This document shows positions 13,832-33,807 of a stretch of DNA of 64,000 nucleotides, piece after piece (the first letter of the stretch is position 1; every line of letters begins with the position of its first letter). The position numbers and the translations under genes are program-made. Origin of the DNA: Emcibacter nanhaiensis (GTDB taxonomy: Bacteria; Pseudomonadota; Alphaproteobacteria; Sphingomonadales; Emcibacteraceae); assembly GCF_006385175.1 (NCBI RefSeq), contig NZ_VFIY01000004.1, positions 248,001-312,000 of the forward strand. Reading direction: 5' to 3'. The notes below the pieces were generated by a model. It saw nothing but the letters and a program-made list of their open reading frames with translations, searched no databases and had not been told where the DNA came from.

Positions 13832-15016
13832 TTATTTTTTCCGGCTCAGTTCCTTCATGGCGGCCTCCAGGCCGGACAGGGTAAGCGGATACATGCGATC
13901 TCCCATCAGTTCCTTCATCAGGGAGATGGACTGGGTATAGTCCCAGTATTTTTCCTGCACGGGGTTAAGCCAGACGGCGCTTTGGTAGATATCCAGGGTG
14001 CGGCGCATCCAGACTTCGCCGCTTTCCGGATTGTAATGTTCCACACTGCCGCCGGGATAGACAATTTCATAGGGGCTCATGGACGCATCGCCGACAAAAA
14101 TCACCTTATAGTCATGGGGATATTTGTGCAGGATATCCCAGGTGTTGAGTTTCCGGGTATGTCGGCGGCTGTTATCTTTCCATACCTTTTCGTACAGGCA
14201 GTTATGGAAATAGAAATATTCCATATTCTTGAATTCAGTACGGGCGGCAGAGAATAGTTCCTCGCAAATCTTGATGAAAGGATCCATAGAGCCGCCGACG
14301 TCAAAGAACAGCAGGACCTTTACCGCATTGTGGCGTTCCGGCACCATCTTGATATCAAGCCAGCCCTGTTTGGCGGTGCTGTGGATGGTATCATGCAGGT
14401 CCAGCTCGCTGGCGGCCCCCTCGCGGGCGAAACGGCGCAGGCGTTTGAGCGCCACTTTGATGTTGCGGGTGCCGAGTTCGACATTGTCATCGAGGTTTTT
14501 ATACTGGCGCTTGTCCCAGACCTTGACCGCCCGGCCATGGCGGCCTTCCTTCTGGCCGATGCGCACGCCTTCCGGGTTATAGCCGTAGGCGCCGAAGGGG
14601 GAGGTGCCGGCGGTGCCGATCCATTTGTTGCCGCCCTGATGGCGTTCCTTTTGTTCCTCAAGCCGCTTTTGCAGGGTTTCCATGAGCTTCTCCCAGTCGC
14701 CCATACCCTCGATCTCCGCCATTTCCTCCGGCGTGAGGAATTTTTCCGCCAGCTTGCGCAGCCATTCTTCCGGGATATCCGCCACCAGATCCTCACCGAC
14801 CGGGGCTTCCAGGCCCTTGAAATGATGGCCGAACACCTGGTCGAACTTGTCGAGATTGCGCTCGTCCTTCACCAGGGTCGCCCGGCTGAGGTAATAGAAG
14901 TCGTCAATGGAATAGTCCGCCAGTCCCTGCTTCATGGCTTCCATGAGGGTGAGATATTCCCGCAGCGAAGCGGGAACGCCATGCTCTCTCAGTTCAAGGA
15001 AGAAATTAACAAACAT
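13832..15016 (-). CDS. VWA-domain protein, CoxE-like partner of MoxR
   Basis: A 394-residue protein. An N-terminal helical region (FFLELREHGVPASLREYLTL) typical of CoxE-like proteins precedes a von Willebrand A domain at about residues 225-390, where FFDVGGSMD provides the metal-site motif D-x-G-x-S. These proteins act with a MoxR AAA+ ATPase in chaperone-like assembly or metal insertion. The MoxR gene is upstream in the same operon but is separated from this one by a TPR-glycosyltransferase gene, whereas the two are usually neighbours. No signal peptide; cytosolic. Confidence 0.87.
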   Translation of the reverse strand: MFVNFFLELREHGVPASLREYLTLMEAMKQGLADYSIDDFYYLSRATLVKDERNLDKFDQVFGHHFKGLEAPVGEDLVADIPEEWLRKLAEKFLTPEEMAEIEGMGDWEKLMETLQKRLEEQKERHQGGNKWIGTAGTSPFGAYGYNPEGVRIGQKEGRHGRAVKVWDKRQYKNLDDNVELGTRNIKVALKRLRRFAREGAASELDLHDTIHSTAKQGWLDIKMVPERHNAVKVLLFFDVGGSMDPFIKICEELFSAARTEFKNMEYFYFHNCLYEKVWKDNSRRHTRKLNTWDILHKYPHDYKVIFVGDASMSPYEIVYPGGSVEHYNPESGEVWMRRTLDIYQSAVWLNPVQEKYWDYTQSISLMKELMGDRMYPLTLSGLEAAMKELSRKK

Positions 15017-15071: not shown

Positions 15072-16721
15072 TTAAAGGTGCCGTCGTAAACGGTCGGATA
15101 TTTTGCCCATGAAATCTGACCATTTTTCATTCATATTTTTCGAGAAGACATGGCCGTTTTCCAGCCAGGGCGGGTTGTTTGTTCCCATCAGCCACCAGGG
15201 GTCGCCGGAGTACAGCCACCACGTCTCTACGCCGGTATTCACCGCCAGGGTGTTACAGGTTGTGGCCGGACCGACGACAAGGTCCAGGCAGGACATCAGG
15301 GCTGCACTGTTGAGAAAATCATCTTTCAGGTCCAATTCGGGGAAACTGTAGATTCTCTGCCCGGACAGTTTTTCCAGTTCCTCCAGTTCCTCCCGGCATT
15401 CCCCATATTGAAGGTTTATGAAGTTTGTATTTGGTGTTTGCTTGATGAGTTCTGCCCACTCCGAGAGCGGTGCATACTGCAGTGACCTGGAGACGGTGAT
15501 CTTGCCGCTTCGCCAGCTAAAACCGACATTTTTTTGCGAAGGAAGTTCGCCCAGCCTGGCCTGCCAGTCCGAAGTGATATCTGCGGGGATCTCCAGCCGG
15601 CGCGCTTTGTGCCGGTCCAAATCCTCCTTCTTTTGCCAGAAGATTTTGAATAGATCAAAATTCAGGCAGAAATAATCAATTTCAGTGTTTTTCAGATCGG
15701 GGTAATGTCTGATGAACTGTCCGGTTTTGCGGTCCTTGCTGTCCTTATAGGCGACGACTTCCGCATTCTTGAAACAGGCCTTGTATAGCGGCAGGAGCCT
15801 TTCATCACAACCGATGTACAGCTTGTCGGCCTGGTCGATCAGGCCGTAATACAGCCCGCACAGAAAAATTTCATCTCCGACACCCTGTTCGCCGCCGATC
15901 AACAGTGTTTTTCCGGCCAGGTCCTCGCCCTGCCAGGCCGGTATGTGGTCCGGCATCCTGCGGGCGCCCGGCTTTTGCAGGTTTTTACGCCATTCATACT
16001 CTTGCCAGCCTTCCGCTAAATGTCCGGAAATGAGTAGGCTGGTAGCGAGGTTCATATGGGCTTCAGGGGAATTGGGGAGTAACTTGACTGCTTTCCTGGC
16101 ATGATTCAGCGCCTGCTCATAGTCGCCGACACTTTCATAGGCCTGGGTAATATTATTATAAATGGTACCGTTGTCGGGATTCAGCTTCAATGCTTCCTCA
16201 AAAAACACCAGGGCCTTGTCCGGTCCGTCTCGCAGGGCGACGGAATTGCCAAGGCTGTCCCAGAGGTAATCCTGGTCGGGATAAATGGGGATAATCTCCT
16301 GCAACAATTCAATTGCCTCGTCAATCCGAACCGCCTGTTGCAAGGCGTTGGCGTAATGATAATAAGCTTTGGGATCGCCGGGGCTAAGTTGAAGATTCCT
16401 GGCAAAGAATTTTACAGCCAGGTCGTCCAGCCCCAGACGGAGACAGGCATGTCCGGCGGTCTGGCAAATTTTCGGGTTATTTTCATCGCGGCTTGCTGCC
16501 TGCAACAAAATGTCCGTACCTTTTTGTAGCTGCCCCAGTTTCATATAACAGTCGGACAACAGAAGTGACAGTTCGCTTGAGGCAAGTCCCAGGGATTTAG
16601 CGCTTTCCAGGACTTCAACGGCTCTGGCGTAGGCCTGCTTTTGATAAAGCGACTGGCCCTTCTGGAACAATTTCCGGGACTGTGCGGCGGCCTGTTTGGA
16701 GATGGAAGAAGAGGATTGCAT
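15072..16721 (-). CDS. FlmG-like TPR-glycosyltransferase, copy 3
   Basis: A 549-residue protein with an N-terminal tetratricopeptide array (about residues 10-250; for example AYYHYANALQQAVRIDEAI and PDNGTIYNNITQAYESVGD) and a C-terminal GT-B-like domain (about residues 265-545). The GT part has GGEQGVGDEI, YIGCDERLLPLY, NVGFSWRSGK and LDLVVGPATTCNTLAVN. This domain order is that of the Caulobacter flagellin glycosyltransferase FlmG, whose TPR part binds flagellin. It lies 15 bases after the MoxR gene and 55 before the VWA gene. It is the most divergent of three paralogs here. Flagellin as acceptor is inferred from context. Confidence 0.75.
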   Translation of the reverse strand: MQSSSSISKQAAAQSRKLFQKGQSLYQKQAYARAVEVLESAKSLGLASSELSLLLSDCYMKLGQLQKGTDILLQAASRDENNPKICQTAGHACLRLGLDDLAVKFFARNLQLSPGDPKAYYHYANALQQAVRIDEAIELLQEIIPIYPDQDYLWDSLGNSVALRDGPDKALVFFEEALKLNPDNGTIYNNITQAYESVGDYEQALNHARKAVKLLPNSPEAHMNLATSLLISGHLAEGWQEYEWRKNLQKPGARRMPDHIPAWQGEDLAGKTLLIGGEQGVGDEIFLCGLYYGLIDQADKLYIGCDERLLPLYKACFKNAEVVAYKDSKDRKTGQFIRHYPDLKNTEIDYFCLNFDLFKIFWQKKEDLDRHKARRLEIPADITSDWQARLGELPSQKNVGFSWRSGKITVSRSLQYAPLSEWAELIKQTPNTNFINLQYGECREELEELEKLSGQRIYSFPELDLKDDFLNSAALMSCLDLVVGPATTCNTLAVNTGVETWWLYSGDPWWLMGTNNPPWLENGHVFSKNMNEKWSDFMGKISDRLRRHL

Positions 16722-16736
16722 TGCTTTGCCGCAGGG

Positions 16737-17588
16737 TTATTTGTTTTCCCGCCTTGTCATAAAGGCAAGGCGTTCGAACAGATGCACATCCTGCTCGTTT
16801 TTCAGCAGGGCGCCATGCAGTGGCGGAATCAGCTTCTTCGGATCCTTGCTTTTCAGCACATCCACCGGCATGTCTTCCACCATCAGCAGTTTGAGCCAGT
16901 CGAGCAGCTCGGAGGTGGACGGGCGCTTTTTCAGGCCCGGCACCTCGCGGATGTCGTAAAACAGGTTCAGCGCTTCGCGGACCAGCATCTTCTGGATGTC
17001 CGGATAATGCACATTGACAATCTGGTGCATGGTGTCCCGGTCAGGGAACTGGATGTAATGGAAGAAACAGCGGCGCAGGAACGCATCCGGCAGTTCCTTT
17101 TCATTGTTACTGGTGATGATCACCAGCGGGCGCTGCTCGGCCTTGATGGTTTCACCGGTCTCATAGACGTTGAACTCCATCCGGTCCAGTTCCTGCAACA
17201 GGTCGTTGGGGAACTCAATGTCGGCCTTGTCAATCTCGTCGATCAGCAGGATCGGGGATTCACCGGCTTCGAAGGCCTCCCACAGCTTGCCCTTCTTGAT
17301 GTAATTCCTGATGTCCTTGACCTTTTCATCGCCCAGCTGGGAATCGCGCAGGCGGGACACGGCATCATATTCATACAGGCCCTGCTGGGCCTTGGTAGTG
17401 GACTTGATGTGCCATTCCAGCAGTTTCTTGCCGGTGGCTTTGGCCACTTCATGGGCCAGCACGGTTTTGCCGGTGCCCGGTTCGCCCTTGATGAGCAAAG
17501 GACGCTGCAAGGTCATGGCGGCATTAACGGCAACCATCAGGTCTTCGGTTGCTACATAGGTATCGGTACCCTTAAACTTCATTTTCAA
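16737..17588 (-). CDS. MoxR-family AAA+ ATPase
   Basis: A 283-residue AAA+ protein of the MoxR/CoxD group. The Walker A motif GEPGTGKT is at about residues 37-44, Walker B is ILLIDEIDKAD near 113, sensor 1 is the TSNNEKELPDAFLRRC region and an arginine-finger context follows. MoxR ATPases remodel protein complexes together with a VWA-domain partner; the partner gene is in the same operon two genes downstream. It sits between FlmG-like copies 2 and 3, an arrangement I take as insertion of a glycosyltransferase gene into an older moxR-VWA pair. Confidence 0.92.
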   Translation of the reverse strand: MKMKFKGTDTYVATEDLMVAVNAAMTLQRPLLIKGEPGTGKTVLAHEVAKATGKKLLEWHIKSTTKAQQGLYEYDAVSRLRDSQLGDEKVKDIRNYIKKGKLWEAFEAGESPILLIDEIDKADIEFPNDLLQELDRMEFNVYETGETIKAEQRPLVIITSNNEKELPDAFLRRCFFHYIQFPDRDTMHQIVNVHYPDIQKMLVREALNLFYDIREVPGLKKRPSTSELLDWLKLLMVEDMPVDVLKSKDPKKLIPPLHGALLKNEQDVHLFERLAFMTRRENK

Positions 17589-17647
17589 ACACCCGTTTTA
17601 GATCATTTGTCAAAGGTTAATCAAAGGTCGAAAGCTGGTCAAAGAAT

Positions 17648-19339
17648 TTATTTTACTGACGTCTGTGAAGTCACCCAGCTCTCAAAGGTGCCCTGCATTT
17701 CCGTCATGAAGGCTGGCCAGGGCTGGTTTGGGTCCTTGGCATGGATGTGGCCTCTCTCCAGCCAGGGAGGGTCCTGGGGACCAAAGGTCCACCAGGGGTA
17801 GCCATTGGTCAGCCACCAGACCTCGGTGCCGGTACAGCCGGCCTGAATCACGGGGGTTGTGGCCGGACCGATCACCAGGTCCAGGCAGGACATCAGGGCA
17901 GCGGTGCCGTCAAAGTCATCCTTCAGGTCCAGGTCCTCGAAGTCGTGAATTTCAATATCATGTTTCATCAAGAATGCCGCAAGCTCGTCACGGTTGTCAC
18001 CATATTGAACGTTGATGAAATTGACCTTCCCGTTTTGGAGTAGGGGCAGCCAGTATTCCAGGGGCGGATAATGCAGTTGTCGCTGGACATGCATGGTGCC
18101 GCTCTTCCAGCAGATGCCCACGTTCAGCTTATGCGGCAGATCCTCCAGCCGCGCGCGCCATTTTTCCGTCTGGGCATCTGAAGGAAGCAGGATTTTCTCA
18201 CGAGGCTTGATGTCTTCCGGCTTTCTCCACACGTTCGCCAGGGCATCCAGGCAAAAGCAATAATAGTCGATGGTTTCAATATCTTCCGGACTGAGGTCTG
18301 GATACAGGCGACCGTTTCTTCCCTCCGGAGTCATAAAGACGTCAAAGGGTGTGATTTCAGCGTCGGGAAAAGAGTTTTTATACAGGGGAACCAGCCGTTC
18401 GTCGCAGCCGATATAGACCTGCCCGGCCTGCTCGACAATCTGCTTGTAGACCGGCGTTGCGAGAATCTCGTCGCCGACACCCTGTTCTGCAGAAATCAGC
18501 AGGGTCTTGCCGGTGATATCCATGCCGCTTTCCCAGGCGGGAATGTCATAGGGCAGGACACAGGAGGCTGCGCTGCCCGGATGGTGGCGCCATTTATACT
18601 CTTCCCAGCCTTGTTGCAGGTTTCCTTCACTCATCAGGATCTTGGCATAGAGGAGATGAGGGTAGGAAAATTCGCTGTAGTTACTGATACATTCCTGCAC
18701 GACTTTTTTGGCATCAGACAGCCGGCCGAGATCCAGGTAGACCGCTGGCAGATTGTACAGGACCAAGCGGTCGTCAGGGGCCTGCCGGTAGGCCTCTTCA
18801 TAGAAAACCAGGCTCGCTTCCGGACCGTCACGAAGGTGCACAACACTGGCCAGGGCAAGCCACAGCGGGGCATGCTCGGGGAATATGGGGATAACATTCT
18901 GCAACAGGTCAATGGCCTTGTCGAACTGGTCTATTTCCTTGAGGGCGGCCGCAAAATTTACATAGCCTTTGGGATCGTTCGGGTTGAGCCGGGTATAATG
19001 CTCATAGGCCTTAAGCGCCAAGTCATGGAAATTCATCTTGGTGGCAGCGCCGCCAATTACCGTGCAGACATCCGAATTTTCGGGTGCTTTTTGCCAGACA
19101 TAGCTCAAGACATTTATGGCTTTGGCTTTTTCGCCGATTTCAAACAGGCAGTTGGCGATCTGAACCCCGACCTGGGAGTTGGACTCGTCATAGTTCCAGG
19201 CCGCATTCAGGAAGGCAAGTGCCTGTGAATATTCGCCCCGGCTGAAAAGCTGATTGCCTTTTTGCAGGTATTTATTGAATTGTCCCCGATTTCGCGCGGG
19301 GGCCAACGTGCCGCTGTTTTTTTCCGATTTTTTGGCCAT
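17648..19339 (-). CDS. FlmG-like TPR-glycosyltransferase, copy 2
   Basis: A 563-residue paralog of the genes on both sides. TPR units span about residues 25-250 (for example KYLQKGNQLFSRGEYSQAL, DPKGYVNFAAALKEIDQFD) and the GT-B-like part about residues 275-555 (ISAEQGVGDEILATPVY, YIGCDERLVPLY, NVGICWKSGT, LVIGPATTPVIQAG, EVWWLTNGYPWW). The ATG at 19339 is chosen because AGGA lies five bases upstream and the product then aligns with copy 1; the frame extends to 19423 but would overlap copy 1. It is 53 bases downstream of copy 1. Probable role: O-glycosylation of flagellin with a nonulosonic acid in the cytoplasm. Confidence 0.78.
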   Translation of the reverse strand: MAKKSEKNSGTLAPARNRGQFNKYLQKGNQLFSRGEYSQALAFLNAAWNYDESNSQVGVQIANCLFEIGEKAKAINVLSYVWQKAPENSDVCTVIGGAATKMNFHDLALKAYEHYTRLNPNDPKGYVNFAAALKEIDQFDKAIDLLQNVIPIFPEHAPLWLALASVVHLRDGPEASLVFYEEAYRQAPDDRLVLYNLPAVYLDLGRLSDAKKVVQECISNYSEFSYPHLLYAKILMSEGNLQQGWEEYKWRHHPGSAASCVLPYDIPAWESGMDITGKTLLISAEQGVGDEILATPVYKQIVEQAGQVYIGCDERLVPLYKNSFPDAEITPFDVFMTPEGRNGRLYPDLSPEDIETIDYYCFCLDALANVWRKPEDIKPREKILLPSDAQTEKWRARLEDLPHKLNVGICWKSGTMHVQRQLHYPPLEYWLPLLQNGKVNFINVQYGDNRDELAAFLMKHDIEIHDFEDLDLKDDFDGTAALMSCLDLVIGPATTPVIQAGCTGTEVWWLTNGYPWWTFGPQDPPWLERGHIHAKDPNQPWPAFMTEMQGTFESWVTSQTSVK

Positions 19340-19392
19340 TTTAATCCTGTGCAGGTTTCCCGAATAGAGGTTTGCTTCGATGAAATATCGGC

Positions 19393-21081
19393 TTACTTGC
19401 CCGGCAGGCTGGATTTGACCCAATCATCAAAAACTGTTCCCATATCTTTCATGAAGTCAGGCCAGGCTTGGGCGGGTTGTTTGTCATAGACCAACCCCTT
19501 GGTGAGCCAGGGCGGGTTTTGCTGGCCAAATGTCCACCAGGGGTGGCCGTTGCTGAGCCACCATACCGGGGTGCCCCCACAGGCAGCCTCGGCAACCGGC
19601 GTGGTTGTCGGCCCCATCACCAGGTCGAGGTTTTGCATCAGGGCAACCGTGCCGGCGAAATCATCTTTCAGGTCCAGGTCTTCAAAGTTATGGATTTCTA
19701 TGCCGTGGTTGTCCGCGATATTTTGCAGTTCCGCGGCGCAGTCGCCATACTGGACATTGATGAAATTGACGTTTTCATTTTTCAGAATAGGCAGCCAGTT
19801 ATCCAGTTCCGTATAACTTGTTTTCCTCTGGGCGTGCAATATGCCGCTTCGCCAGCAGATCCCGACATTCAGTTTTTTGGGAAGTTTTTCGATCTCTGCC
19901 GCCCATTTCTCTTTTAAGCCGGCACTCGTGTCCAGAATTTGCTCCATGGGCTTTATGTCGTCGACGGATTGCCACAGGTTTGAAACGGCGTCCAGGTTGA
20001 AGCACATATAATCAATCTGTTCAACCTGCTCGTCAGTCAGGTCCTTATAGTTCCGGCCGCGCCGGCCGTCGCTCAGGGCGTAAACCCCATAGGGCAGGAT
20101 TGTGGCTTCCGGGAAGGATGTCTCAAACAGGGGGACCAGTCTTCGGTCACACCCGATATAGAGATGCTTGACCCTATCGATCAGCTGTCGGTAGACCGGT
20201 GTAGCCAGCAACTCATCGCCAACACCTTGTTCCGCGCTGAGCAACAGGGTTTTCCCTTCTATATCTATGCCCTTGTTCCAATAGTCGGTTTTATAGGGGA
20301 GAAGGCAGGCCGTCGGGTTGGTCGAATGGTGTCGCCATTTATACTCGCTCCAGCCCTTGCTGAGGTTGCCTTCATTAAGCAGGATTTTTGAGTACAGCAG
20401 GTGAGGGGACGCAAAGTCGCTGTATCTTTCCAGGCAGGCAAGCACCAGTTCCTTGGCCTTGTCAATTTGGCCGAGGTCATAATATATGCCCGGGAGGTTA
20501 TTGAGGATCTGCCGGCTGGTCGGGTTCAGCCTGTAGGACTCTTCAAAAAAGACCAGGGATTTTTCCGGCCCGTCGCGCAGCTGGACTGCCGCCGCCAGCG
20601 CATTCCACATTTCATCGTTTTCGGGGTAAATGGGAATAATTTCCTGAAGAAGTGTGATGGCCTCATCCAGCTGATTATTTTCCCGCAATGCCGTGGCCAG
20701 GTTGACATATCCCTTGGGATCATTCGGCTGAAGCTTTGTATAGTGATCATAGGCTTTCAGCGCCAAGTCGAAGAAGTTCATCCTGAGCGCTGCAGAGCCG
20801 ATGACGGTGCAGATGTCGGCTTTGTCGGGATGTTTCTGCCAGGTATAGATCAGCAAATCGAGGGCCTGGTTTTGCCGTCCCATCTGAAACAGGCAATCAG
20901 CAAGCTGGATGGTGATTTCGGGGATACTGTCATCATACTGCCAGGCCGCGTTAAGGAATTTGGCTGCAGTTGCATATTCACCTTTTGAATAGTGAAAGTT
21001 CCCTTTGCGAAAATATTTTGTAAATTGGCCTTTCGTTTTTGCAGGGGGTAATGCGTTGGAATTATTTGCTTTTCGAGCCAT
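19393..21081 (-). CDS. FlmG-like TPR-glycosyltransferase, copy 1
   Basis: A 562-residue protein, first gene of the minus-strand run. It starts MARKANN, then a basic linker, then TPR units (about residues 22-250) and a GT-B-like domain (about 275-555) with LSAEQGVGDELLATPVY, YIGCDRRLVPLF, NVGICWRSGI and LVMGPTTTPVAEAACGG. Copies 1 and 2 are clearly the closest pair, and they share the ending WWTFG-x-Q-x-PPWL. The gene is divergent from flbT, so a flagellin glycosyltransferase and flagellin regulators share one intergenic region. FlmG of Caulobacter is the named family example; equivalence is inferred, not proven. Confidence 0.8.
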   Translation of the reverse strand: MARKANNSNALPPAKTKGQFTKYFRKGNFHYSKGEYATAAKFLNAAWQYDDSIPEITIQLADCLFQMGRQNQALDLLIYTWQKHPDKADICTVIGSAALRMNFFDLALKAYDHYTKLQPNDPKGYVNLATALRENNQLDEAITLLQEIIPIYPENDEMWNALAAAVQLRDGPEKSLVFFEESYRLNPTSRQILNNLPGIYYDLGQIDKAKELVLACLERYSDFASPHLLYSKILLNEGNLSKGWSEYKWRHHSTNPTACLLPYKTDYWNKGIDIEGKTLLLSAEQGVGDELLATPVYRQLIDRVKHLYIGCDRRLVPLFETSFPEATILPYGVYALSDGRRGRNYKDLTDEQVEQIDYMCFNLDAVSNLWQSVDDIKPMEQILDTSAGLKEKWAAEIEKLPKKLNVGICWRSGILHAQRKTSYTELDNWLPILKNENVNFINVQYGDCAAELQNIADNHGIEIHNFEDLDLKDDFAGTVALMQNLDLVMGPTTTPVAEAACGGTPVWWLSNGHPWWTFGQQNPPWLTKGLVYDKQPAQAWPDFMKDMGTVFDDWVKSSLPGK

Positions 21082-21267: not shown

Positions 21268-21693
21268 ATGGCTTTGAAATTGTCATTGAAACCCGGTGAG
21301 AAATTTGTCGTAAACGGGGCTGTTATTGTAAATGGGGACAGGCGTGCAACACTTGTCTTGCAGAATAAGGCATCGCTGCTGAGGGAAAAGGATATCATGC
21401 AGCCGGACGAAGTGAATACACCGGTCCGGCATGTGTATTTCCCCATCATGCTGATGTACATGGACGAGGCAGGTCGCAAGGGATATTACGAGAAGTTTGT
21501 TCTCAGGATGACAGAGCTTCTTGGTGTAGTCGAAGATCCCGAAGCTAAGGCGCTTTGTGTCGCAATCAGCCAGGATGTTATGGAGGGTGAGTATTACAAG
21601 GCCCTCAATAAGTGTAAGAAACTGTTTGTATATGAGAAAGAGAGACTGAATTATGTCCCTGGAAGCGTACCAGAAGACACAACAGGCAACTGA
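21268..21693 (+). CDS. flbT: Flagellin regulator FlbT
   Basis: A 141-residue protein matching FlbT throughout: LSLKPGEKFVVNGAVI at the start, LQNKASLLREKDIM, and the region HVYFPIMLMYMDE. In Caulobacter FlbT binds the 5' untranslated region of flagellin mRNA and lowers its stability or translation until the hook is complete. An AAAG-rich weak ribosome site precedes the ATG. The end overlaps flaF by 41 bases, so the two are co-expressed, and flagellin 1 follows 276 bases after flaF. Confidence 0.92.
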   Translation: MALKLSLKPGEKFVVNGAVIVNGDRRATLVLQNKASLLREKDIMQPDEVNTPVRHVYFPIMLMYMDEAGRKGYYEKFVLRMTELLGVVEDPEAKALCVAISQDVMEGEYYKALNKCKKLFVYEKERLNYVPGSVPEDTTGN

Positions 21694-22078
21694 AACGGCA
21701 TCTCAGACAGAATACCGGATTTTTACCCAGGTTACCCGCGCTCTTATGGACGCCAGGGAGCTCCCTACAACAGACAAGCGCCTGCATGAAGCCCTGCACT
21801 GGAACCGGCGGCTGTGGTCAACCCTGGCGACAGATTGTGCCGTTGAGGGAAACAAGCTTCCTGATATCCTGCGGGGACAGATCGTCTCTTTGTCAATCTG
21901 GGTAAGTAAATATAGTTCACAGGTCGCCAAGGGCGAAGAAAATGTGGACGCTTTGATTACCATCAACCGGAACATCATGGATGGTCTGGCCGCCCAGGCG
22001 TCACTGTCATCCTCCGGGGCAGCCCGGGAAGAGTCGGCTGGTGCGCCAACACAGCCTTTTACCTCTACGACCATTTAA
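21653..22078 (+). CDS. flaF: Flagellin regulator FlaF
   Basis: A 141-residue FlaF-family protein, recognised from the N-terminal YQKTQQATETASQTEYRIF, the LHEALHWNRRLWSTLA block and SIWVSKYSSQV. In alphaproteobacteria FlaF works with FlbT and promotes flagellin synthesis or secretion. The C-terminal tail of about 20 residues, rich in Ser, Ala and Thr, extends past the usual family end. The start lies inside flbT in another frame, and a hairpin terminator follows the stop. Confidence 0.9.
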   Translation: MSLEAYQKTQQATETASQTEYRIFTQVTRALMDARELPTTDKRLHEALHWNRRLWSTLATDCAVEGNKLPDILRGQIVSLSIWVSKYSSQVAKGEENVDALITINRNIMDGLAAQASLSSSGAAREESAGAPTQPFTSTTI

Positions 22079-22354: not shown

Positions 22355-23170
22355 ATGGCTTTTTCAGTCAATACTAATGCGGGCGCTCTCGTCGCCCTTC
22401 AGACTCTCAACAAAACCAATTCCAACCTGGCTACTACTCAGAACCGGATCAGCACCGGTCTGAAAGTGGCTAGCGCTAAAGACAATGCTGCGATCTATTC
22501 TATCGCTCAGTCTCAGCGTGCTGAAATTTCCGGTTTGAACGCTGTGAAAGACAGCCTGAGCCGTGCTACTGGTGCGATTGATACTGCTCTGGCCGGTGCC
22601 GAAGCTGTTTCCGACCTGCTCATCGAGCTGAAGGAAAAAGCTGTGGCTGCTGCCGATACCGGTATTGATGCTTCCCAGCGTACACTGCTGAACAACGAAT
22701 TTAGCGAACTGCGTAACCAGATCGACACGATCGTTGCCAACGCTGAATTCAACGGTATTAACGCTCTGCGTGGTTCTGACGATATTACAGCGATCGTTAA
22801 CCAGGACGCTACTTCCTCTATTACGATTGCTGCTCAGGACATCGACGTAGGCACACTGGGTCTGTCCGGTAAGTCCATCACCACCTCCGCCAGTGCGGCC
22901 GGTGTTGTGACCCTGGTTGACTCTGCTCTGGATACAGTGAACGCCTCTCTGGCGGTGCTTGGTGCCGGTGCGAAACGTATCGAATCAGTGACGACTTTCG
23001 TAGGCAAACTGTCAGACTCGATCGAGACTGGTATCGGTAACCTTGTGGATGCCGACCTGGCCCGAGAAAGTGCGAATTTGCAGTCGCTACAGGTTAAACA
23101 GCAGCTTGGTCTGCAGGCCCTGTCGATTGCGAACCAGCAGCCGAGTTCTGTACTCTCACTCTTCGGCTAA
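22355..23170 (+). CDS. Flagellin 1
   Basis: A 271-residue flagellin. The conserved N-terminal D0/D1 region (residues 1-135) contains the LNKTNSNLATTQNRISTGL and ASAKDNAAIYSIAQ segments, and the C-terminal region (about 200-271) ends QQLGLQALSIANQ and LSLFG. The middle is short and rich in Ser and Thr (TSSITIAA, SITTSASAAG), where O-linked sugar would be exposed. GGAG precedes the ATG. It follows flbT-flaF, precedes flaG and lies between the FlmG-like and nonulosonic acid genes. Codons here differ in style from neighbours (many GCT, TCT and CTG), as expected for a highly expressed gene. Confidence 0.96.
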   Translation: MAFSVNTNAGALVALQTLNKTNSNLATTQNRISTGLKVASAKDNAAIYSIAQSQRAEISGLNAVKDSLSRATGAIDTALAGAEAVSDLLIELKEKAVAAADTGIDASQRTLLNNEFSELRNQIDTIVANAEFNGINALRGSDDITAIVNQDATSSITIAAQDIDVGTLGLSGKSITTSASAAGVVTLVDSALDTVNASLAVLGAGAKRIESVTTFVGKLSDSIETGIGNLVDADLARESANLQSLQVKQQLGLQALSIANQQPSSVLSLFG

Positions 23171-23885: not shown

Positions 23886-24725
23886 ATGAAAATATTGATC
23901 ACAGGCGGTTCCGGTTTGCTGGCTCCCTATATTGTGGAGGCATTTTCCGGGAGCGGGGACGTTATGACGACATCGAGAAAGGATGCGGAGTATCCCTGCG
24001 ACCTGACAGACAAAGCCGAAGTCCTTGAATTAGTTGAAAAAATAAATCCCGATGTGATCGTGCATCTGGCGGCGATGACAAATGTGGATTATTGCGAAGA
24101 GCATCCGGACGAAGCCCATGCGGCCAATGTCACGGCAACAGCCCATCTTGTCGAAGCCGTAAGCGGGTCAGACTGCTATTTGATCTATGTCTCGACGGAT
24201 CAGGTATACCCGGACGGGCCGGGCCTTTTTTCGGAAGGGCAGGTTGACCCGGTTAATCAATATGGCGCCAGCAAATATCAGGGCGAGGAAGCGGCCCGAC
24301 GGCATCCGAACAGCCTGATCGCGCGCATAAATATCGTCGGCCCTTCCCGGACGCCGGGACGATCGAGCCTGAGTGATTTTTTCACAAATTCTTTTGCCGA
24401 AGGCAAACATATCAGCCTTTTCCAGGATGTGCTGTTTTCTCCCCTGCATATGGAGACTTTGGCACAGCTTTTGCTACAATGTTACAGGAAGAAACTGACC
24501 GGAACCTATAATATCGGGTCCCATGACGGCATGAGCAAAAAGGATTTTGCCCTGAAACTGGCGGAATATAAGGGCTTGGATGCCTCAAATGTGACGATTG
24601 TGAACAGCTCGGATATGGCCGGGCGGGCTGTCAGGCCAAGGGATCTGAGGCTGAATGTGGCCTTTTTTGAACAGAAAAGCGGGATAAAATTGCCTAGTTT
24701 GCAGGAAGAGATCGAAAAATTATGA
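23886..24725 (+). CDS. RmlD-like SDR sugar-nucleotide reductase
   Basis: A 279-residue short-chain dehydrogenase of the RmlD substrate-binding type. GGSGLLAPYI near residue 7 is the NAD(P)-binding turn, HLAAMTNVDYCE and VSTDQVYPDG follow, and YGASK at about residues 122-126 holds the catalytic Tyr and Lys. It probably reduces a keto-sugar nucleotide. It is the first gene of the cluster; its stop overlaps the NeuB-like start by four bases. Which sugar it acts on is not readable; it is not part of the core pseudaminic pathway and may modify the sugar or a companion sugar. Confidence 0.85.
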   Translation: MKILITGGSGLLAPYIVEAFSGSGDVMTTSRKDAEYPCDLTDKAEVLELVEKINPDVIVHLAAMTNVDYCEEHPDEAHAANVTATAHLVEAVSGSDCYLIYVSTDQVYPDGPGLFSEGQVDPVNQYGASKYQGEEAARRHPNSLIARINIVGPSRTPGRSSLSDFFTNSFAEGKHISLFQDVLFSPLHMETLAQLLLQCYRKKLTGTYNIGSHDGMSKKDFALKLAEYKGLDASNVTIVNSSDMAGRAVRPRDLRLNVAFFEQKSGIKLPSLQEEIEKL

Positions 24726-25900
24726 CCAACCGGATCAAAATCGGAACTCATTACGTCGGCCCGGATGAACCGGTTTATTTCATCGCCGACATCGCTGCCA
24801 ACCATGACGGCGACCTGGAAAAGGCCAAGGACCTGATCTATTCCTGTGCCGAAAACGGCGCCCGGGCGGCCAAGTTCCAGAATTTTTTCGCCAAGTCCAT
24901 TGTCTCCGACAAGGGCTTCCGCCAGATGGGCGGCAAATTTTCTCATCAGGAGGGCTGGGACAAAAGCATCTTCGAGATCTATGAGGATGCCGCTCTGCCG
25001 GTGACCTGGACCGAAACCCTGCGGGACACCTGTGCCGATGCCGGCATTGACTATTTTACCGCGCCTTATTCCCTGGAACTGGTCAGGCAGCTGCAGCCTT
25101 TTGTTTCCGCTTGGAAAATGGGTTCCGGCGATATCACCTGGCATGAGGAAATCGAGGCCATGGCCAAATCCGGGCTGCCGTTTATCATGGCGACCGGCGC
25201 TTCGACCATGGCCGAAGTGACAGCTGCCGTGGGTGCGGCTCTGAAGCATACCGACCAGCTGATCCTCATGCAGTGCAATACCAACTATACGGCCAAACTG
25301 GATGAGCCCAGGGACGTCACCCTGGAAAGGTTCCGGAACATTAATCTCAAGGTGCTGGAGAGCTTTGCCAAGGCCTTTCCCGGGGTCTCTCTCGGCCTGT
25401 CCGACCATACCCACGGACACAGCACGGTGCTGGGCGCGGTCGGCCTGTATGGCGCCCGATCCATCGAGAAACATTATACCCTGGATAATAATCTGGTTGG
25501 TCCGGACCATCCTTTCTCCATGAATCCGGAAAGCTGGAAACTGATGGTGGAGAAGACGGCGGAGCTGGATGACCTGATTGCTGACGGCATGTCATGGGAC
25601 GAGAAATACCAGCTTGTGGAGAGTCTGTGCGATGACCCGGAGGGGCTTTCCCTGTCCATTGGCGACGGCGTCAAAAAGGTTGAAGACAATGAAAAGGATA
25701 CGGTTGTCCTGCAGCGCCGGGGCCTGCGCGCGACACGGGACCTGGCGTCCGGCGAAACCATAAGTGAGGGGGACCTGTTTCCGCTGCGTCCCTGTCCGGA
25801 AGACGCCCTTGCGCCCTATGAGCTCAGTAAATGCCTTGGCCGGGTGTTAATAAAGGATATCGAAGAGGGGGAACATATCACCTGGGGTGATTTGAAGTAA
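24722..25900 (+). CDS. NeuB-family nonulosonic acid synthase
   Basis: A 392-residue protein of the N-acetylneuraminate/pseudaminate/legionaminate synthase family. The TIM-barrel part (residues 1-300) contains FIADIAANHDGD, AAKFQNF, YFTAPYS, WKMGSGD, MATGAS and LSDHTHGH, and IEKHYTLD near residue 250. A C-terminal SAF/antifreeze-like domain (about 322-390) has RRGLRATRDLASGE with the substrate-contacting Arg. The enzyme condenses a six-carbon amino sugar with phosphoenolpyruvate to make a nine-carbon acid. Family members SpsE and PseI are closest in feel; the exact sugar cannot be told. Coupled to the SDR gene before and seven bases from the GT2 gene after. Confidence 0.92.
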   Translation: MTNRIKIGTHYVGPDEPVYFIADIAANHDGDLEKAKDLIYSCAENGARAAKFQNFFAKSIVSDKGFRQMGGKFSHQEGWDKSIFEIYEDAALPVTWTETLRDTCADAGIDYFTAPYSLELVRQLQPFVSAWKMGSGDITWHEEIEAMAKSGLPFIMATGASTMAEVTAAVGAALKHTDQLILMQCNTNYTAKLDEPRDVTLERFRNINLKVLESFAKAFPGVSLGLSDHTHGHSTVLGAVGLYGARSIEKHYTLDNNLVGPDHPFSMNPESWKLMVEKTAELDDLIADGMSWDEKYQLVESLCDDPEGLSLSIGDGVKKVEDNEKDTVVLQRRGLRATRDLASGETISEGDLFPLRPCPEDALAPYELSKCLGRVLIKDIEEGEHITWGDLK

Positions 25901-25906
25901 GATCCT

Positions 25907-26581
25907 ATGACTGAAGAACGAAAGCATATCGCCATCATCATTCCGGCGCTTAATGAAGAGGGCACCATTGCCACTGTGGTGCAGGCGGTGCGGCCCTTTG
26001 GTGATGTGATTGTGGTGGACGACGGTTCCACGGACAAGACGGCACAGATTGCGCAGGAGGCCGGCGCCGAGGTGGTGTCCCATCCTGTAAACCAGGGCTA
26101 TGACATGGCCCTGTTCAGCGGTTTTTCCCGCGCCATCGAAGCCGGGTATAAAATATGCCTTTCCATTGATGCGGACAACCAGCATTGCCCGGAATTTATT
26201 CCTCAACTGGTCAAACCGATCGAGGACGGAAAAGCAGCTATTTCCATTGGGGTGCGCCCCAAACCGGCGCGCCTGTCCGAGGCGCTGTTCCGGCTCTATA
26301 CCAAGGCCCGCTGGGGAATTGGCGACATCCTGTGCGGCATGAAAGCCTATGACACGGCTGTGTTGAAGGGCTATATCCATATTTTCCGCCACCCGACCAT
26401 CGGCACCGGCGTCACCCTGACCGCGGCGCGCGACGGGATCGAGATCGCCCAGCTCGATATGCCGGTGCGCGAGCGCGTGGATACCCCGCGCATTGGCCGG
26501 GTGCTCCGGGCCAACTGGATCATCTTCAAAGCCATGCTGGGTGATATTTTTTCAGGGGGGAATTATGCCCGGAGCGGATAA
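25907..26581 (+). CDS. Family 2 glycosyltransferase
   Basis: A 224-residue GT-A enzyme. IIIPALNEEGTI at the start, VVDDGSTD at about residues 37-44 and SIDADNQH at about 87-94 (the D-x-D-like metal site) match the dolichyl-phosphate mannose synthase-like group of GT2. There is no C-terminal membrane domain, so it is soluble or peripheral. In a nonulosonic acid cluster it could add a further sugar or make a lipid-linked donor. It overlaps the next gene by 17 bases. Confidence 0.88.
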   Translation: MTEERKHIAIIIPALNEEGTIATVVQAVRPFGDVIVVDDGSTDKTAQIAQEAGAEVVSHPVNQGYDMALFSGFSRAIEAGYKICLSIDADNQHCPEFIPQLVKPIEDGKAAISIGVRPKPARLSEALFRLYTKARWGIGDILCGMKAYDTAVLKGYIHIFRHPTIGTGVTLTAARDGIEIAQLDMPVRERVDTPRIGRVLRANWIIFKAMLGDIFSGGNYARSG

Positions 26582-27311
26582 GATCGTAGTGATAGTCCAG
26601 GCCCGGATGACCTCTTCCCGGTTGCCGGGAAAAGTGCTTAAGCCTTTGGCCCGAAAAACTATTCTCGAACATGTCATCGAGCGCTGCAGCCGTATTGCAG
26701 GGGTGGACGAGGTCTCTATCGCCATGCCTGATGACGCGGCCCAGGACCCTTTGGTGAAATTCGTCAGCGGACTTAAGAACGTTTCCTTCTTCCAGGGATC
26801 GGAGACCAATGTGCTGGAGCGGACCTTTCTGGCGGCCAAGGCGGTCGGGGCCGGGACGTTGCTGCGGGTGACGTCAGATTGCCCGTTTATCGATCCGGAT
26901 ATCTCCGGCGCATTGTTGGCCGCGTACCGGCAATCCGGTGCCCGCTATGCCCGCCTGCCCATGGACCGGGGGTTTCCGCTGGGCTTCGATACCGAGGTCC
27001 TGTCCATGGACCTGTTGCGCGAGGTGTATGAGGCGGATACCGACGAGTATGAACAAGAGCATGTGACCCCCTATATCTGGCGGCGACCGGAACAATATGG
27101 CTGCCTGATGCTGGACCATCTGCCAAGCCTGCGCCACTGGCGGCTGGTGGTCGATGAAGAACGGGATTACGAGTTTGCTGCCCGGGTTTTCGAGGAACTC
27201 TATCCGGCGAAACCCGAGTTCAATTTTAAAGACCTGCAGCAACTGTTTTCCGACAAGCCGGAATTACTTGAAATTAATGCCTCTGTAGCGCAAAATCCTT
27301 ATGTAAAATGA
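26565..27311 (+). CDS. SpsF-like cytidylyltransferase, copy A
   Basis: A 248-residue nucleotidyltransferase of the CMP-sugar synthetase-like (SpsF) family. IVQARMTSSRLPGKVL at residues 9-24 is the nucleotide-binding start; LLRVTSDCPFIDP is the metal-site region. The ATG at 26565 follows AGGGGGG four bases upstream and is preferred to the longer frame from 26493. Such enzymes activate nonulosonic or related sugars with CTP. A second, similar gene lies 1.4 kb downstream, so the two may have split roles. It precedes the methyltransferase by 30 bases. Confidence 0.85.
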   Translation: MPGADKIVVIVQARMTSSRLPGKVLKPLARKTILEHVIERCSRIAGVDEVSIAMPDDAAQDPLVKFVSGLKNVSFFQGSETNVLERTFLAAKAVGAGTLLRVTSDCPFIDPDISGALLAAYRQSGARYARLPMDRGFPLGFDTEVLSMDLLREVYEADTDEYEQEHVTPYIWRRPEQYGCLMLDHLPSLRHWRLVVDEERDYEFAARVFEELYPAKPEFNFKDLQQLFSDKPELLEINASVAQNPYVK

Positions 27312-27341: not shown

Positions 27342-27974
27342 ATGAATACATCAAATACCGAGCAGACGTCCTTCTGGCGTGGGGAATTCGGGGACGAATA
27401 TATTGATCGCAACGCGGCCGATGCCGAACACCTGCGCAATCGTCTCGCCATGTGGAGCCGGATCATCGCCCCGATGCGGGATGAAATGCCGAAACGGATT
27501 CTGGAGATTGGCTCCAACATCGGCCTCAACCTGCGCGCGCTCAATCTTCTGACGGATGCCGAGATGGTCGCGGTTGAACCCAATGAAAAGGCGCGCAAGA
27601 TCCTGGTTGACGACAAAGTGGTCGCCCCGGGCAACGCCATTGAAGGGGTGGCGTCGGAATTTGATCTTGCGGATGGCGCCGTTGATATGGCCTTTACCTG
27701 TACGGTGATGATCCATATCCACCCGGATGATCTTCTGGCCGCCTGCAAACGGATCCACCGGGCGACCAGCAAATATGTGGTCTGCATCGAATATTTCTCC
27801 GACAAGCAGGAAATGATCGAATACCGCGGCCACAGCAACAAACTGTTCAAATGTGACTTCGGCGGTTTCTGGATGGACAATTTCCCCGATCTGAAACTGC
27901 TGGACTACGGCTTCGAATGGAAGCGGATCACCGGGCTGGATAACTTCACCTGGTGGGTTTTTGAGAAGAAGTAA
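27342..27974 (+). CDS. Pseudaminic-acid-associated SAM methyltransferase
   Basis: A 210-residue class I methyltransferase. The opening TSFWRGEFGDEYIDRN resembles the family named pseudaminic acid biosynthesis-associated methylase. Motif I is ILEIGSNIGLNL at about residues 47-58, then MVAVEPNEKA and a core FTCTVMIHI. These proteins occur in nonulosonic acid clusters and may methylate the sugar or a precursor. The product is probably cytosolic. The gene's end is followed at once by the second SpsF-like gene, ten bases on. Confidence 0.85.
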   Translation: MNTSNTEQTSFWRGEFGDEYIDRNAADAEHLRNRLAMWSRIIAPMRDEMPKRILEIGSNIGLNLRALNLLTDAEMVAVEPNEKARKILVDDKVVAPGNAIEGVASEFDLADGAVDMAFTCTVMIHIHPDDLLAACKRIHRATSKYVVCIEYFSDKQEMIEYRGHSNKLFKCDFGGFWMDNFPDLKLLDYGFEWKRITGLDNFTWWVFEKK

Positions 27975-27984
27975 GGCAGAATTC

Positions 27985-28746
27985 ATGCCGGGAAACAAGC
28001 ATATCGTCGCCACCATCGAAGCGCGCATGACCTCGACCCGCCTGCCGGGCAAGGTGCTGAAGGAGTGCCAGGGCAAGTCCATGCTGGCGCTGATGGTCGA
28101 GCGCGTGCAACGGGCTCGGCATATTGACGAGGTGGTGATTGCGACCACGGTCAATGTGACTGATGATGTCATTGTGGAGGAAGCCAACCGGCTTGGCGTC
28201 GGGTTTTACCGGGGCAGCGAGGACAATGTCATGTCCCGGGTGCTGGAGGCGGCCAAGGCGCACAAGGCGGATATCATTGTTGAACTGACCGGCGACTGTC
28301 CGCTGATGGACCCGGCTTTGATCGATGAAGCGGTTGAGGCTTATCTTGACAGCGGCGTGGATTATTTGTCCAACTTCAACTATTTGACTTTCGACACCGC
28401 GGAAACCTATCCGATCGGCTGTTCGGTGCAGGTCTTCAGGACTGCCGTCCTCGACGATGCCTTCAGCCGCACTGACGATCCGCTGGACCTGGAGCATGTG
28501 AGCCGCTTCATCTATCAGCATCTGGACCTGTACAGCGTTAAATTTATCGGCGCGCCGGAACATCTGCGGGCGCCGGAGGTCTCTATCACCCTGGATACGC
28601 CGGAAGATTTCCAGCTGATCGAGGCGGTGTTTGATCATCTTTATCCGAAAGATCCCGAGTTTACTCTGGCGGATATTCTGGATTTCTTCAAGGAGCATCC
28701 GGAAATCGCCGCCCTCAACCGGCAGATCGGCAGGGTGAAGGTGTGA
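27985..28746 (+). CDS. SpsF-like cytidylyltransferase, copy B
   Basis: A 253-residue relative of copy A. IEARMTSTRLPGKVLKE at residues 9-25, VELTGDCPLMDP in the middle and EHVSRFIYQH near the end fit the same family. The ATG at 27985, with AAGG about nine bases upstream, gives alignment with copy A; the frame is open from 27961. The two copies share the framework but differ across the sugar-binding half, so they probably use different sugars or partners. Its TGA overlaps the GTG start of the oxidoreductase. Confidence 0.84.
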   Translation: MPGNKHIVATIEARMTSTRLPGKVLKECQGKSMLALMVERVQRARHIDEVVIATTVNVTDDVIVEEANRLGVGFYRGSEDNVMSRVLEAAKAHKADIIVELTGDCPLMDPALIDEAVEAYLDSGVDYLSNFNYLTFDTAETYPIGCSVQVFRTAVLDDAFSRTDDPLDLEHVSRFIYQHLDLYSVKFIGAPEHLRAPEVSITLDTPEDFQLIEAVFDHLYPKDPEFTLADILDFFKEHPEIAALNRQIGRVKV

Positions 28747-29723
28747 GCGCGCCTGTGGAACCGTACAAGGTTTTTATCATCGGCTGCGGAGCCATTGCCG
28801 GCGGTTATGACGCAACCGATCCGCAATGCCCCGATGTGGTGCAGACCCATGCCAAGGCTTTCGGGCTGGATGACAGGTTCAAGGTTGTCGGCTGTTATGA
28901 TCCTGATCAGGAAAAGGCCCGGAAATTCGCCGCTTTGTGGAATATTTCCGAGGCCGCCAGCGAGCTCGAGAGGGCTTTGTCGGATCTGATGCCGGATGTG
29001 GTCTGCATTTGCAGTCCGACAAAATTTCATGAGCAGCACCTGACGCTGATGCGGGACAGGGACATTAAGCTGGTGATCTGTGAAAAACCCTTGACGGACG
29101 GGATTGAAAGCAGCCGGGCAGTCGTTGAAAAATATCTTGGGAGTTCAACCGCGCTGACGGTCAATTACACCCGGCGCTGGAACAGGGCCTTCCAGGATCT
29201 GGCCCGGCGCATTGCCGACGGGGAATTTGGCCGGCTGCAGCGGGGGACCGGCTGGTACAACAAGGGTCTCTATAACAACGGTTCCCATATGGTTGACCTG
29301 TTCCGGATGTTTTTCGGCGACCTCACCGTGACCCATGCCGGTCAGGTGGAACATGATTTCTGGGAAGATGACCCGACCATAAGCGCAGGCCTCAGGACGG
29401 CTAGTGACCTGCACCTGCACCTTGCCGGGACCGATGTTCGCGATTTTCAGTTTTTCGAGTTTCGCCTGGTCATGGAGAAATCCGTCATCGACATGGTTGA
29501 TTTCGGCGACCGGCTGGTGATCCGGAAACTGGGCGAGGATGGCGTGCCGGTGCGCAACGCAGAGACCATCGATACCGGCCGCAACAGGACCTTTGTGGAA
29601 TTGGCGGACAACATCGCCAATTATCTGGGGGGCGGCGAAACCCTTAAAACTTCGGCACAGGACGCACTGACAACACTGGAAATATGCGCCGCTATCCGGC
29701 AGATGGCCGGCGTGCGGACGTGA
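28743..29723 (+). CDS. Gfo/Idh/MocA-family oxidoreductase
   Basis: A 326-residue NAD(P)-dependent oxidoreductase with a GTG start overlapping the previous stop. IIGCGAIAGGYDA at residues 11-23 is the Rossmann turn, and CEKPLTDG contains the catalytic Lys of the E-K-P motif. LTVNYTRRWNRAF and NGSHMVDLFRMFFG follow, the latter with the family His. These enzymes oxidise or epimerise sugar nucleotides. In related flagellin-sugar clusters such genes sit with SpsF-like and DegT-like genes. Substrate unknown. Confidence 0.87.
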   Translation: MSAPVEPYKVFIIGCGAIAGGYDATDPQCPDVVQTHAKAFGLDDRFKVVGCYDPDQEKARKFAALWNISEAASELERALSDLMPDVVCICSPTKFHEQHLTLMRDRDIKLVICEKPLTDGIESSRAVVEKYLGSSTALTVNYTRRWNRAFQDLARRIADGEFGRLQRGTGWYNKGLYNNGSHMVDLFRMFFGDLTVTHAGQVEHDFWEDDPTISAGLRTASDLHLHLAGTDVRDFQFFEFRLVMEKSVIDMVDFGDRLVIRKLGEDGVPVRNAETIDTGRNRTFVELADNIANYLGGGETLKTSAQDALTTLEICAAIRQMAGVRT

Positions 29724-31059: not shown

Positions 31060-32026
31060 CCCCCAGAAAATCCTTCTGTTCAGCCGGGATCCCGGCGGCA
31101 CCAACCAGCTGGTCGCGGTGCGGGACTTGTTGCTATCCGCCAACCGGCAGGACAGGCAGATTTTCGCGCCATTGGGGCTCTCGGCAGCCATCCCGGCAAT
31201 CAGGATTGTGGCCAAGGATTATGCCCGGGACATCTGGAAACGGCTTGACGCGGACTATCACGACTGGGCGGAGGTGGGCCTTGGGCGCTTGTTTGAGGAC
31301 TTCGTCCCGGACCTGGTGCTGACTGCCACCGGCCATGTGGATGATCACTCCGAGCAGGAGGTCTGGCGACAGGCCAGAAGCCAGGATATCCCAAGTGCGG
31401 CTTTTCTGGATTCTGCCGATCATGTTCAGGACCGCTTTCTGGATGCGACAGGCGGGAAAATATTCCCTGACCATGTTTATGTCTTCGATCGCCAGTCCGC
31501 AGCTGACCTTTCGGGCATGGATTTTCCGGCGGACCATATACATATCACCGGCGACCTGTATGCGGGTTATCTTGGCCGACAGGACAATCCCGAAGCAGTC
31601 CGTGATATCTGGTCGGCCTGGAATAGCCAGCCAGGTGAATCAATCATCCTCTTTGCTTCCGACTATATTTCGGAAATCGGACTGGCCGGATTTGAAGACA
31701 AGGTCAGCGAATTTGAGTGTCTTGATTACCTGATTGATGGGCTGGAGGAGCTGGCTGCTGCCAGCGGTCTGTCCGGGCCCTTCCGGCTCGTGATCCGGAT
31801 GCATCCCAAGGATACGCCGGGAAAATATGATGCCTATCCGGACAAATCACAGCTAGGTCTGACGATTATGATCAATAATCAAGGATTGTCACAGGATGCG
31901 GTCAGGGCGGCGGACCTGGTGGCCGGGATGCGCTCGGCTTTACTCAGGGAAGCCGAGGTATTCGGAACACCGGTCTTGCGGCTTATTCCTCTGGTTCTGA
32001 ATAAAGGTCCTCAAAAAAGCGCCTGA
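31046..32026 (+). CDS. GT-B-like protein of the sugar cluster, function unknown
   Basis: A 326-residue protein with a TTG start inside the aminotransferase end, preceded by GAGG. No family is firmly recognised. ILLFSRDPGGTNQLVAV at the start, VIRMHPKD at about residues 249-256 and AADLVAGMRSALLREAEVFG at about 290-309 resemble the two-domain fold of UDP-GlcNAc 2-epimerases, PseG hydrolases and GT-B transferases. A UDP-sugar hydrolase (PseG/LegG step) or a glycosyltransferase would fit the cluster, which otherwise lacks that enzyme. Its 3' end overlaps the convergent acetyltransferase gene by 44 bases. Confidence 0.65.
   Translation: MTGNNPQKILLFSRDPGGTNQLVAVRDLLLSANRQDRQIFAPLGLSAAIPAIRIVAKDYARDIWKRLDADYHDWAEVGLGRLFEDFVPDLVLTATGHVDDHSEQEVWRQARSQDIPSAAFLDSADHVQDRFLDATGGKIFPDHVYVFDRQSAADLSGMDFPADHIHITGDLYAGYLGRQDNPEAVRDIWSAWNSQPGESIILFASDYISEIGLAGFEDKVSEFECLDYLIDGLEELAAASGLSGPFRLVIRMHPKDTPGKYDAYPDKSQLGLTIMINNQGLSQDAVRAADLVAGMRSALLREAEVFGTPVLRLIPLVLNKGPQKSA

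Positions 32027-32766: not shown

Positions 32767-33804
<1,038 letters not shown>

Positions 33805-33807
<3 letters not shown>

Follow-up and report, generated by a model that had tools for sequence, protein, structure and literature searches.

FlmG of Caulobacter is the closest described counterpart of the genes considered here. According to the available part of PMC7591256, it is required for flagellin modification and suffices for it in a pseudaminic acid-producing host; flagellins are bound by its TPR part, a pseudaminic acid pathway is needed, and one FlmG modifies all six flagellins. In the stretch of Emcibacter nanhaiensis DNA analyzed here (64,000 nucleotides, positions 248,001 to 312,000 of contig NZ_VFIY01000004.1; hereafter the window), three genes of this type, termed A, B and C, lie at one site beside flbT, flaF and a flagellin gene. 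It is probable, although some doubt is warranted, that they encode cytoplasmic flagellin O-glycosyltransferases of the FlmG type, all three derived from one flmG duplicated at the site and acting on the same flagellins.

Architecture and identity of the three paralogs

A preliminary description of the window had reported three paralogs combining a TPR array with a glycosyltransferase (GT) domain, and three such intact genes, for proteins of 549-563 amino acids (aa), are indeed found at 15072-21081 beside flbT, flaF and flagellin 1. The same description called them tandem, which holds in that three same-strand copies share one site but not in the sense of strict adjacency: the gene order is C-B-moxR-A-vWA, all on the minus strand, with moxR between A and B and with A inside a moxR-vWA pair, while C is divergent from flbT-flaF-flagellin. 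For B, an ATG start was used in place of the listed TTG at 19423, which gives a longer open reading frame (ORF). Over the whole proteins, B and C are 58% identical, and A is 38-39% identical to either; the difference of 42% between B and C rules out an assembly duplicate. No full-length homolog beyond A, B and C was found in the genome, where the other five matches cover the TPR part only.

The N-terminal half of each protein matches TPR families in Pfam. The AlphaFold2 model of C (16-row alignment; mean pLDDT, the predicted local distance difference test, of 91.1) consists of seven helix pairs followed by a GT-B-like domain. With the fold of A and B judged from their alignment to C, all three window copies have the single-protein layout of FlmG (about 600 aa), with an N-terminal TPR and a C-terminal GT-B domain. 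Amongst the motif blocks previously listed as shared, YIGCD is present in all three and WRSG (A and C) or WKSG (B) is as stated, but GEQGVGDE is literal in A only, with AEQGVGDE in B and C. At the 25 GT positions that are at least 93% conserved across 81 homologs, A and C keep every residue and B departs once (G460D, C numbering). The solved structure that best matches the GT region of C is the GT9 enzyme 3tov (Z 17.9, 268 aligned, 3.5 Å; VIA ranking), and the heptosyltransferase TibC matches the same region at Z 15.9. Foldseek ranks SPY/OGT first for the model of C; OGT and SPINDLY match through the combined layout, and among the best 60 of 73 PDB sequence matches, the OGT/SPY ones cover the TPR part of C only. 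Pfam at E 0.001 gives no GT41 match for the window copies. An assignment of the GT domain to GT9 or GT41 is not claimed, fold rank alone being behind either.

An FlmG gene divergent from flbT-flaF-flagellin is common to Kordiimonas, Maricaulis, Asticcacaulis, Phenylobacterium and Caulobacter vibrioides OR37. The side of FlmG away from flbT is occupied by moxR or a chemotaxis pair in genomes of the same family as the window, and by moxR in many Caulobacteraceae; in Kordiimonas, moxR is found beyond flaG, not next to FlmG. An 81-row tree places A, B and C inside a 25-row clade of same-family syntenic FlmGs (support 100), and the deep order towards Caulobacter FlmG is uncertain. Clustering with unrelated transferases, which had been raised as the outcome contrary to an FlmG identity, was not seen in this tree, built without OGT or other outside families.

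Across genomes, FlmG is associated with flagellin and with the nonulosonate synthase NeuB. Within the family, 22 of 25 genomes with flagellin have an FlmG (E at most 1e-100), as against none of six without flagellin (Fisher p 1.1e-4, relatedness uncorrected); two of the three flagellin-bearing genomes without it are 67-69% complete, and in G012 the flagellin lies near the contig start. In a sample of 296 genomes from the order (FlmG match at 1e-40, best 4 candidates scored per genome), NeuB is present in 54 of the 61 genomes with an FlmG match versus 58 of the 235 without (p 3e-20, again uncorrected for relatedness); G013, with its broken copy, and G019 and G043, with distant paralogs, are counted among the 61. 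Of the 27 family-f5 genomes with an FlmG match, 19 have a NeuB match within 200 bases of it and on that strand, as judged by eye. The genome G013 has no flagellin match, and its FlmG is broken into two frames (L147:4333-5650). Architecture, synteny (including that of OR37), tree position and co-occurrence with flagellin and NeuB all bear out the FlmG-type identity proposed earlier, and sequence comparison thus supports the classification of A, B and C as FlmG-type flagellin glycosyltransferases.

Copy number in related genomes

In the order sample, 46 of the 61 genomes with a match have one FlmG, 14 have two, and the window genome alone has three (among the best 4 candidates per genome). Four of these 14 second copies were inspected: those of G004, G015 and G056 are distant paralogs at other genomic locations, and that of G039 is shorter, near by and on the opposite strand. 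At the level of the class, 13 of 385 genomes, including that of the window, have at least three TPR-GT matches at 1e-50 (best 3 candidates scored per genome). Amongst the named loci (79, the best of at least 526 and no random sample), six of the 66 with flbT and a divergent FlmG hold more than one FlmG: two each in Asticcacaulis (L072, L086, L108 and L136) and Phenylobacterium (L130), and three in Phenylobacterium sp. M049S2SP5A64QC (L134). The vWA gene was not found in any of these six loci. The Phenylobacterium and Asticcacaulis expansions are separate from that of the window in the 81-row tree, from which the fused ORF of L136 was left out. The three-copy set, earlier called unusual, is therefore so for the order, where 1 of 296 genomes has it, but not absolutely, as L134 also has three copies at the flbT site. 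No paper on FlmG paralog arrays appeared among those listed in searches of open-licence PMC papers.

Other forms of the TPR-GT architecture were encountered in the same searches. The proteins of L140-L142 (G004, G015 and G019) form a further TPR-GT family, which is non-syntenic and about 27% identical. ORFs of 1198-2484 aa with FlmG-type GT domains occur at L114, L119, L124 and L137 (three Azospirillum records and one proteobacterium, L124), and the several matches along each suggest that these are fused TPR-GT concatemers.

Evolution at the flmG site

The position of copy A is probably derived, since FlmG lies between moxR and vWA in none of the 24 other loci with both genes, and the matched stretches of the two are at most 60 bases apart in 19 of these loci, some of which share a genome. 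At L052, L059 and L132, moxR and vWA are separated by 1.2-4.4 kb of other DNA. Because copy A splits the pair in the window and other DNA splits it in these three loci, the moxR-vWA junction may be an insertion-prone spot.

The genes flanking the array and the array itself differ in their relationships. The median identity to same-family loci is 86% for window MoxR, 81% for vWA and 77% for FlbT (n=8, 8 and 15), versus 41% for C and 37% for A against same-family FlmG (n=15). Likewise, window MoxR, vWA and FlbT are 89%, 90% and 82% identical to those of the relative G002, but C only 42%. Both AlaS (support 95/89) and the concatenated flanking genes (94/97; nine of 19 rows under half filled) pair the window genome with G002, and alternative trees that join G002 to genus g2 and leave out the window are disfavored (p 0.03 for AlaS, 0.055 for the flanks). 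The FlmG tree places G002 with g2 (100/100), and a sister relationship between the window FlmGs and that of G002 is rejected by it (p 3e-9). This conflict between FlmG and flanks could reflect either replacement of flmG in one lineage or differential loss of old paralogs. A grouping of the window copies with genus g5 is moderate only (96/98 on whole proteins), and in separate trees of the TPR and GT domains the alternative grouping with G002 and g2 is not rejected (p 0.05 to 0.22), so that no donor lineage is claimed. Within the array, the pairing of B with C is firm (100/100), and a single clade of A, B and C is not rejected (p 0.205), yet is not shown by the FlmG tree. A chimeric origin of B or C, with GT and TPR from different lineages, was raised by the identity values but finds no support, as the separate TPR and GT trees agree.

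Copy A has the longest branch (1.46, versus 0.36 for C and 0.45 for B after a shared stem of 0.52). In all four expansions (window, L134, L130 and Asticcacaulis), path length is lowest for the copy proximal to flbT and highest for the most distal one, a pattern spotted post hoc: from proximal to distal, the path lengths are 0.87, 0.88 and 1.2 in the window (C and B tied), 0.58, 0.9 and 1.06 in L134, 0.36 and 0.48 in L130, and 0.64-0.82 versus 1.11-1.24 in Asticcacaulis. It is conceivable, if somewhat unlikely, that the flmG locus turns over fast and has been amplified repeatedly, with extra copies inserted away from flbT taking new sites or sugars on the same flagellin. If so, the flagellin glycan would be combinatorial, changing via allele replacement and duplication rather than via changes in the flagellin.

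Gene content of the window and the nonulosonate island

Both flagellins of the genome, which are distinct genes, lie inside the window, as does an island of sugar genes (Table 1).

Table 1. Coordinates and assignments of genes at the FlmG array, the flagellin genes and the sugar island
Feature	Position	Strand	Remarks
vWA/CoxE-like gene, moxR partner	13832..15016	-	Pfam VWA_CoxE; downstream of copy A
FlmG paralog A	15072..16721	-	549 aa; TPR array + GT domain; most diverged copy; between moxR and vWA
MoxR-type AAA ATPase gene	16737..17588	-	Pfam AAA/AAA_5; between copies A and B
FlmG paralog B	17648..19339	-	563 aa counted from ATG at 19339
FlmG paralog C	19393..21081	-	562 aa; adjoins flbT, site of relatives' single flmG
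flbT	21268..21693	+	Pfam FlbT 5e-46
flaF	21653..22078	+	Pfam FlaF 1e-34; start as listed; overlaps flbT end
Flagellin 1, likely acceptor	22355..23170	+	Pfam Flagellin_N/C; follows flaF
RmlD-like NAD-dependent sugar reductase	23886..24725	+	Pfam RmlD_sub_bind 1.5e-47; below rmlD equivalog cut-off
NeuB-family nonulosonate synthase with SAF domain	24722..25900	+	only NeuB of the genome; best PDB sequence match SpsE
Family 2 glycosyltransferase (GT2)	25907..26581	+	Pfam Glycos_transf_2
Cytidylyltransferase 1	26568..27311	+	CTP_transf_3
Pseudaminic-acid-associated methylase	27342..27974	+	TIGR03587 165.7 bits, cut-off 112.05
Cytidylyltransferase 2	27970..28746	+	CTP_transf_3
Gfo/Idh/MocA-type oxidoreductase	28743..29723	+	profile match
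DegT-family sugar aminotransferase	29743..31059	+	PseC/LegC-like, below both cut-offs
NeuC / UDP-GlcNAc 2-epimerase-fold protein, candidate sugar-nucleotide hydrolase or epimerase	31046..32026	+	predicted fold
GNAT acetyltransferase	31983..32687	-	Pfam Acetyltransf_3
PseB, UDP-GlcNAc 4,6-dehydratase (inverting)	32773..33807	+	TIGR03589 516.6 bits, cut-off 407.75
Flagellin 2, likely acceptor	33907..34737	-	Pfam Flagellin_N/C

The nonulosonic acid cluster that had been noted beside the array is borne out by PseB and the pseudaminic-acid-associated methylase, which pass curated cut-offs, and by NeuB, DegT, GNAT and CTP_transf_3 matches in Pfam. A nonulosonate gene set (dehydratase, aminotransferase, acetyltransferase, hydrolase, synthase and cytidylyltransferase) is present together, with the hydrolase recognized from predicted fold only, and this gene content makes it likely that the island supplies a nonulosonate donor. 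The product of 31046-32026 has no Pfam or NCBIfam match; its model (mean pLDDT 84) aligns to NeuC 5zlr with Z 19.0 (270 aligned, root-mean-square deviation 3.2), and it has relatives in the flagellin sugar islands L148-L150. The window NeuB is SpsE-like and falls below the PseI and NeuB equivalog cut-offs, and thus the sugar may differ from the pseudaminic acid of Caulobacter FlmG. In the window genome, the CTP_transf_3 matches above about 31 bits are the island pair only, and none of the four matches is an obvious KdsB.

A similar island occupies the same site in G007, G008 and G028, each with one FlmG match, and is absent from that site in G002. Compared with those three, the window island has an added block (RmlD-like, NeuB and GT2) for which no match was found there. 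Base composition has no sharp boundary at the array or at the sugar island. Promoter-like sites across the array are near chance (9 versus 6.1 expected) and terminator-like sites number 20 versus 9.9 by chance, of which 16 are on the opposite strand and the other four inside array genes; neither scan is informative.

Proposed roles of the three copies

Under the proposed mechanism, a single flmG at the site would have duplicated to give three paralogs. By analogy with Caulobacter FlmG, the TPR domain of each copy would bind flagellin before export and the GT domain would transfer activated nonulosonate from the 23886-33807 island to Ser/Thr, presumably with the same chemistry in all three. With less certainty, C (and B) may keep the basal role, and the faster-evolving A may have taken on a partly different task on the same flagellins, either another site or a later glycan step. 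The relatives with one FlmG (34 genomes) have 2-10 flagellins each, with a median of 4; this count includes G004, G015 and G056 despite their distant paralog elsewhere, and leaves out G039 (second, shorter copy near by) and G043 (distant match only). FlmG copy number thus does not follow flagellin number, nor does it follow cytidylyltransferase number. Because copy number is unlinked to flagellin number, a division of labor by site or glycan step appears likelier than one by flagellin. The earlier suggestion that three transferases serve two flagellins through different acceptors finds no support as an explanation of copy number, given these 34 relatives and the one FlmG that serves six flagellins in Caulobacter (PMC7591256).

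Acceptor-protein specificity, in which each copy serves a different flagellin, would nonetheless fit the TPR being the flagellin-binding part of Caulobacter FlmG (in the available part of PMC7591256), as the TPR domains of the three copies differ (identity A-B 31%, A-C 37% and B-C 59%) and the two window flagellins are distinct genes. However, three copies do not map onto two flagellins, and together with the one-FlmG relatives this leaves the reading unlikely. A tentative but credible alternative is that each copy modifies sites of its own on flagellins that all three share, in the manner reported for Maf-1 and Maf-2, paralogous flagellin glycosyltransferases with different serine-site specificity (Unay et al. 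2024, as described in the available part of PMC13317340). In multi-copy sets of other genomes, identity to single-copy Caulobacteraceae FlmGs has fallen further in the TPR than in the GT domain of the distal copy (distal versus proximal, TPR 29 vs 39 and GT 46 vs 44 in L072; TPR 32 vs 43 and GT 51 vs 56 in L134), although window copy A has diverged in both domains. It is also possible, if doubtful, that the copies differ in donor or add one sugar after another, with the two cytidylyltransferases and the methylase making more than one cytidine monophosphate (CMP)-sugar. The two CTP_transf_3 genes, the methylase and the added RmlD-like/NeuB/GT2 block are consistent with such a scheme, but a single FlmG accompanies two cytidylyltransferase matches and PseB and methylase homologs in both G007 and G008, homologs of nine of the eleven island genes in G045, and the same island in G028, whose FlmG departs at two conserved GT positions. 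Moreover, the GT domains of A, B and C have diverged from each other no more than their TPRs.

Two further readings set aside a special task on the flagellins. The copies could be redundant and serve dosage, with A drifting under relaxed constraint, as its long branch would allow; yet none of the 25 conserved GT positions is lost in A, its frame is intact, and B and C are old duplicates that are still intact, which makes redundancy improbable. Glycosylation of a non-flagellin protein by A, or by more of the copies, is suggested by the location of A away from flbT and inside the moxR-vWA pair, and by the presence in the family of TPR-GT paralogs off the flagellin locus, one of them in a flagellin-less genome. 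As A groups with the syntenic FlmGs and not with that paralog clade, and the flagellin-less G013 holds only a broken FlmG, this is very unlikely.

Several observations weigh against the preferred reading of A, B and C as duplicated FlmG-type enzymes that act on the same flagellins. The long branch of A could also reflect relaxed constraint. In the midpoint-rooted 81-row tree, non-syntenic TPR-GT paralogs fall among the syntenic FlmGs, so that the tree does not prove one-to-one orthology with Caulobacter FlmG. The genome G019 has a non-syntenic TPR-GT paralog but no flagellin match; architecture alone is therefore no proof of a flagellin target, and the acceptor of the G019 protein is probably not flagellin, because that genome lacks any flagellin match. 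With regard to the donor, five relatives (G004, G010, G025, G028 and G046) have a full FlmG but no NeuB match. The complete, one-contig G004 (100%) has a syntenic FlmG (L044) and 8 flagellin matches, no NeuB, and cytidylyltransferase matches of no more than about 36 bits; hence a nonulosonate donor cannot be assumed for every FlmG, and, judging from its gene content, the G004 FlmG may use another donor.

Significance and comparison with known systems

Sets of two or three intact paralogs that occur naturally at a single site, and that arose independently in several lineages, would reveal how specificity for acceptor and donor evolves, and could be a ready source of TPR and GT modules for glycoengineering. 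Should the copies turn out to be redundant, the array would amount to a minor gene duplication.

The window copies and Caulobacter crescentus FlmG (CCNA_01524; 596 residues according to the available part of PMC7591256) share an N-terminal TPR and a C-terminal GT-B domain. The C. vibrioides OR37 locus (L078, FlmG of 598 aa) resembles the window in being divergent from flbT/flaF/flagellins with moxR near by, but has one FlmG gene rather than three, and identity to Caulobacter FlmG is about 30%. Like FlmG, Maf-1 binds its acceptor through a TPR, which is C-terminal in Maf-1 (as described in the available part of PMC13317340) and N-terminal in FlmG, a likeness drawn from published description. 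The flagellin glycosylation islands of Geobacillus, which the accessible portion of PMC5109656 describes as showing evidence of horizontal acquisition, are also variable sugar gene islands at flagellin loci; their hosts, unlike that of the window, are Gram-positive, and this comparison too is by description. The closest parallels in copy number are the Phenylobacterium and Asticcacaulis sets, which likewise have more than one FlmG at the flbT site; the copies of L130 and L134 sit together between flbT and moxR, whereas copy A of the window lies beyond moxR. The window trio is a lineage-specific FlmG expansion with precedents, and a modest variant of a known system.

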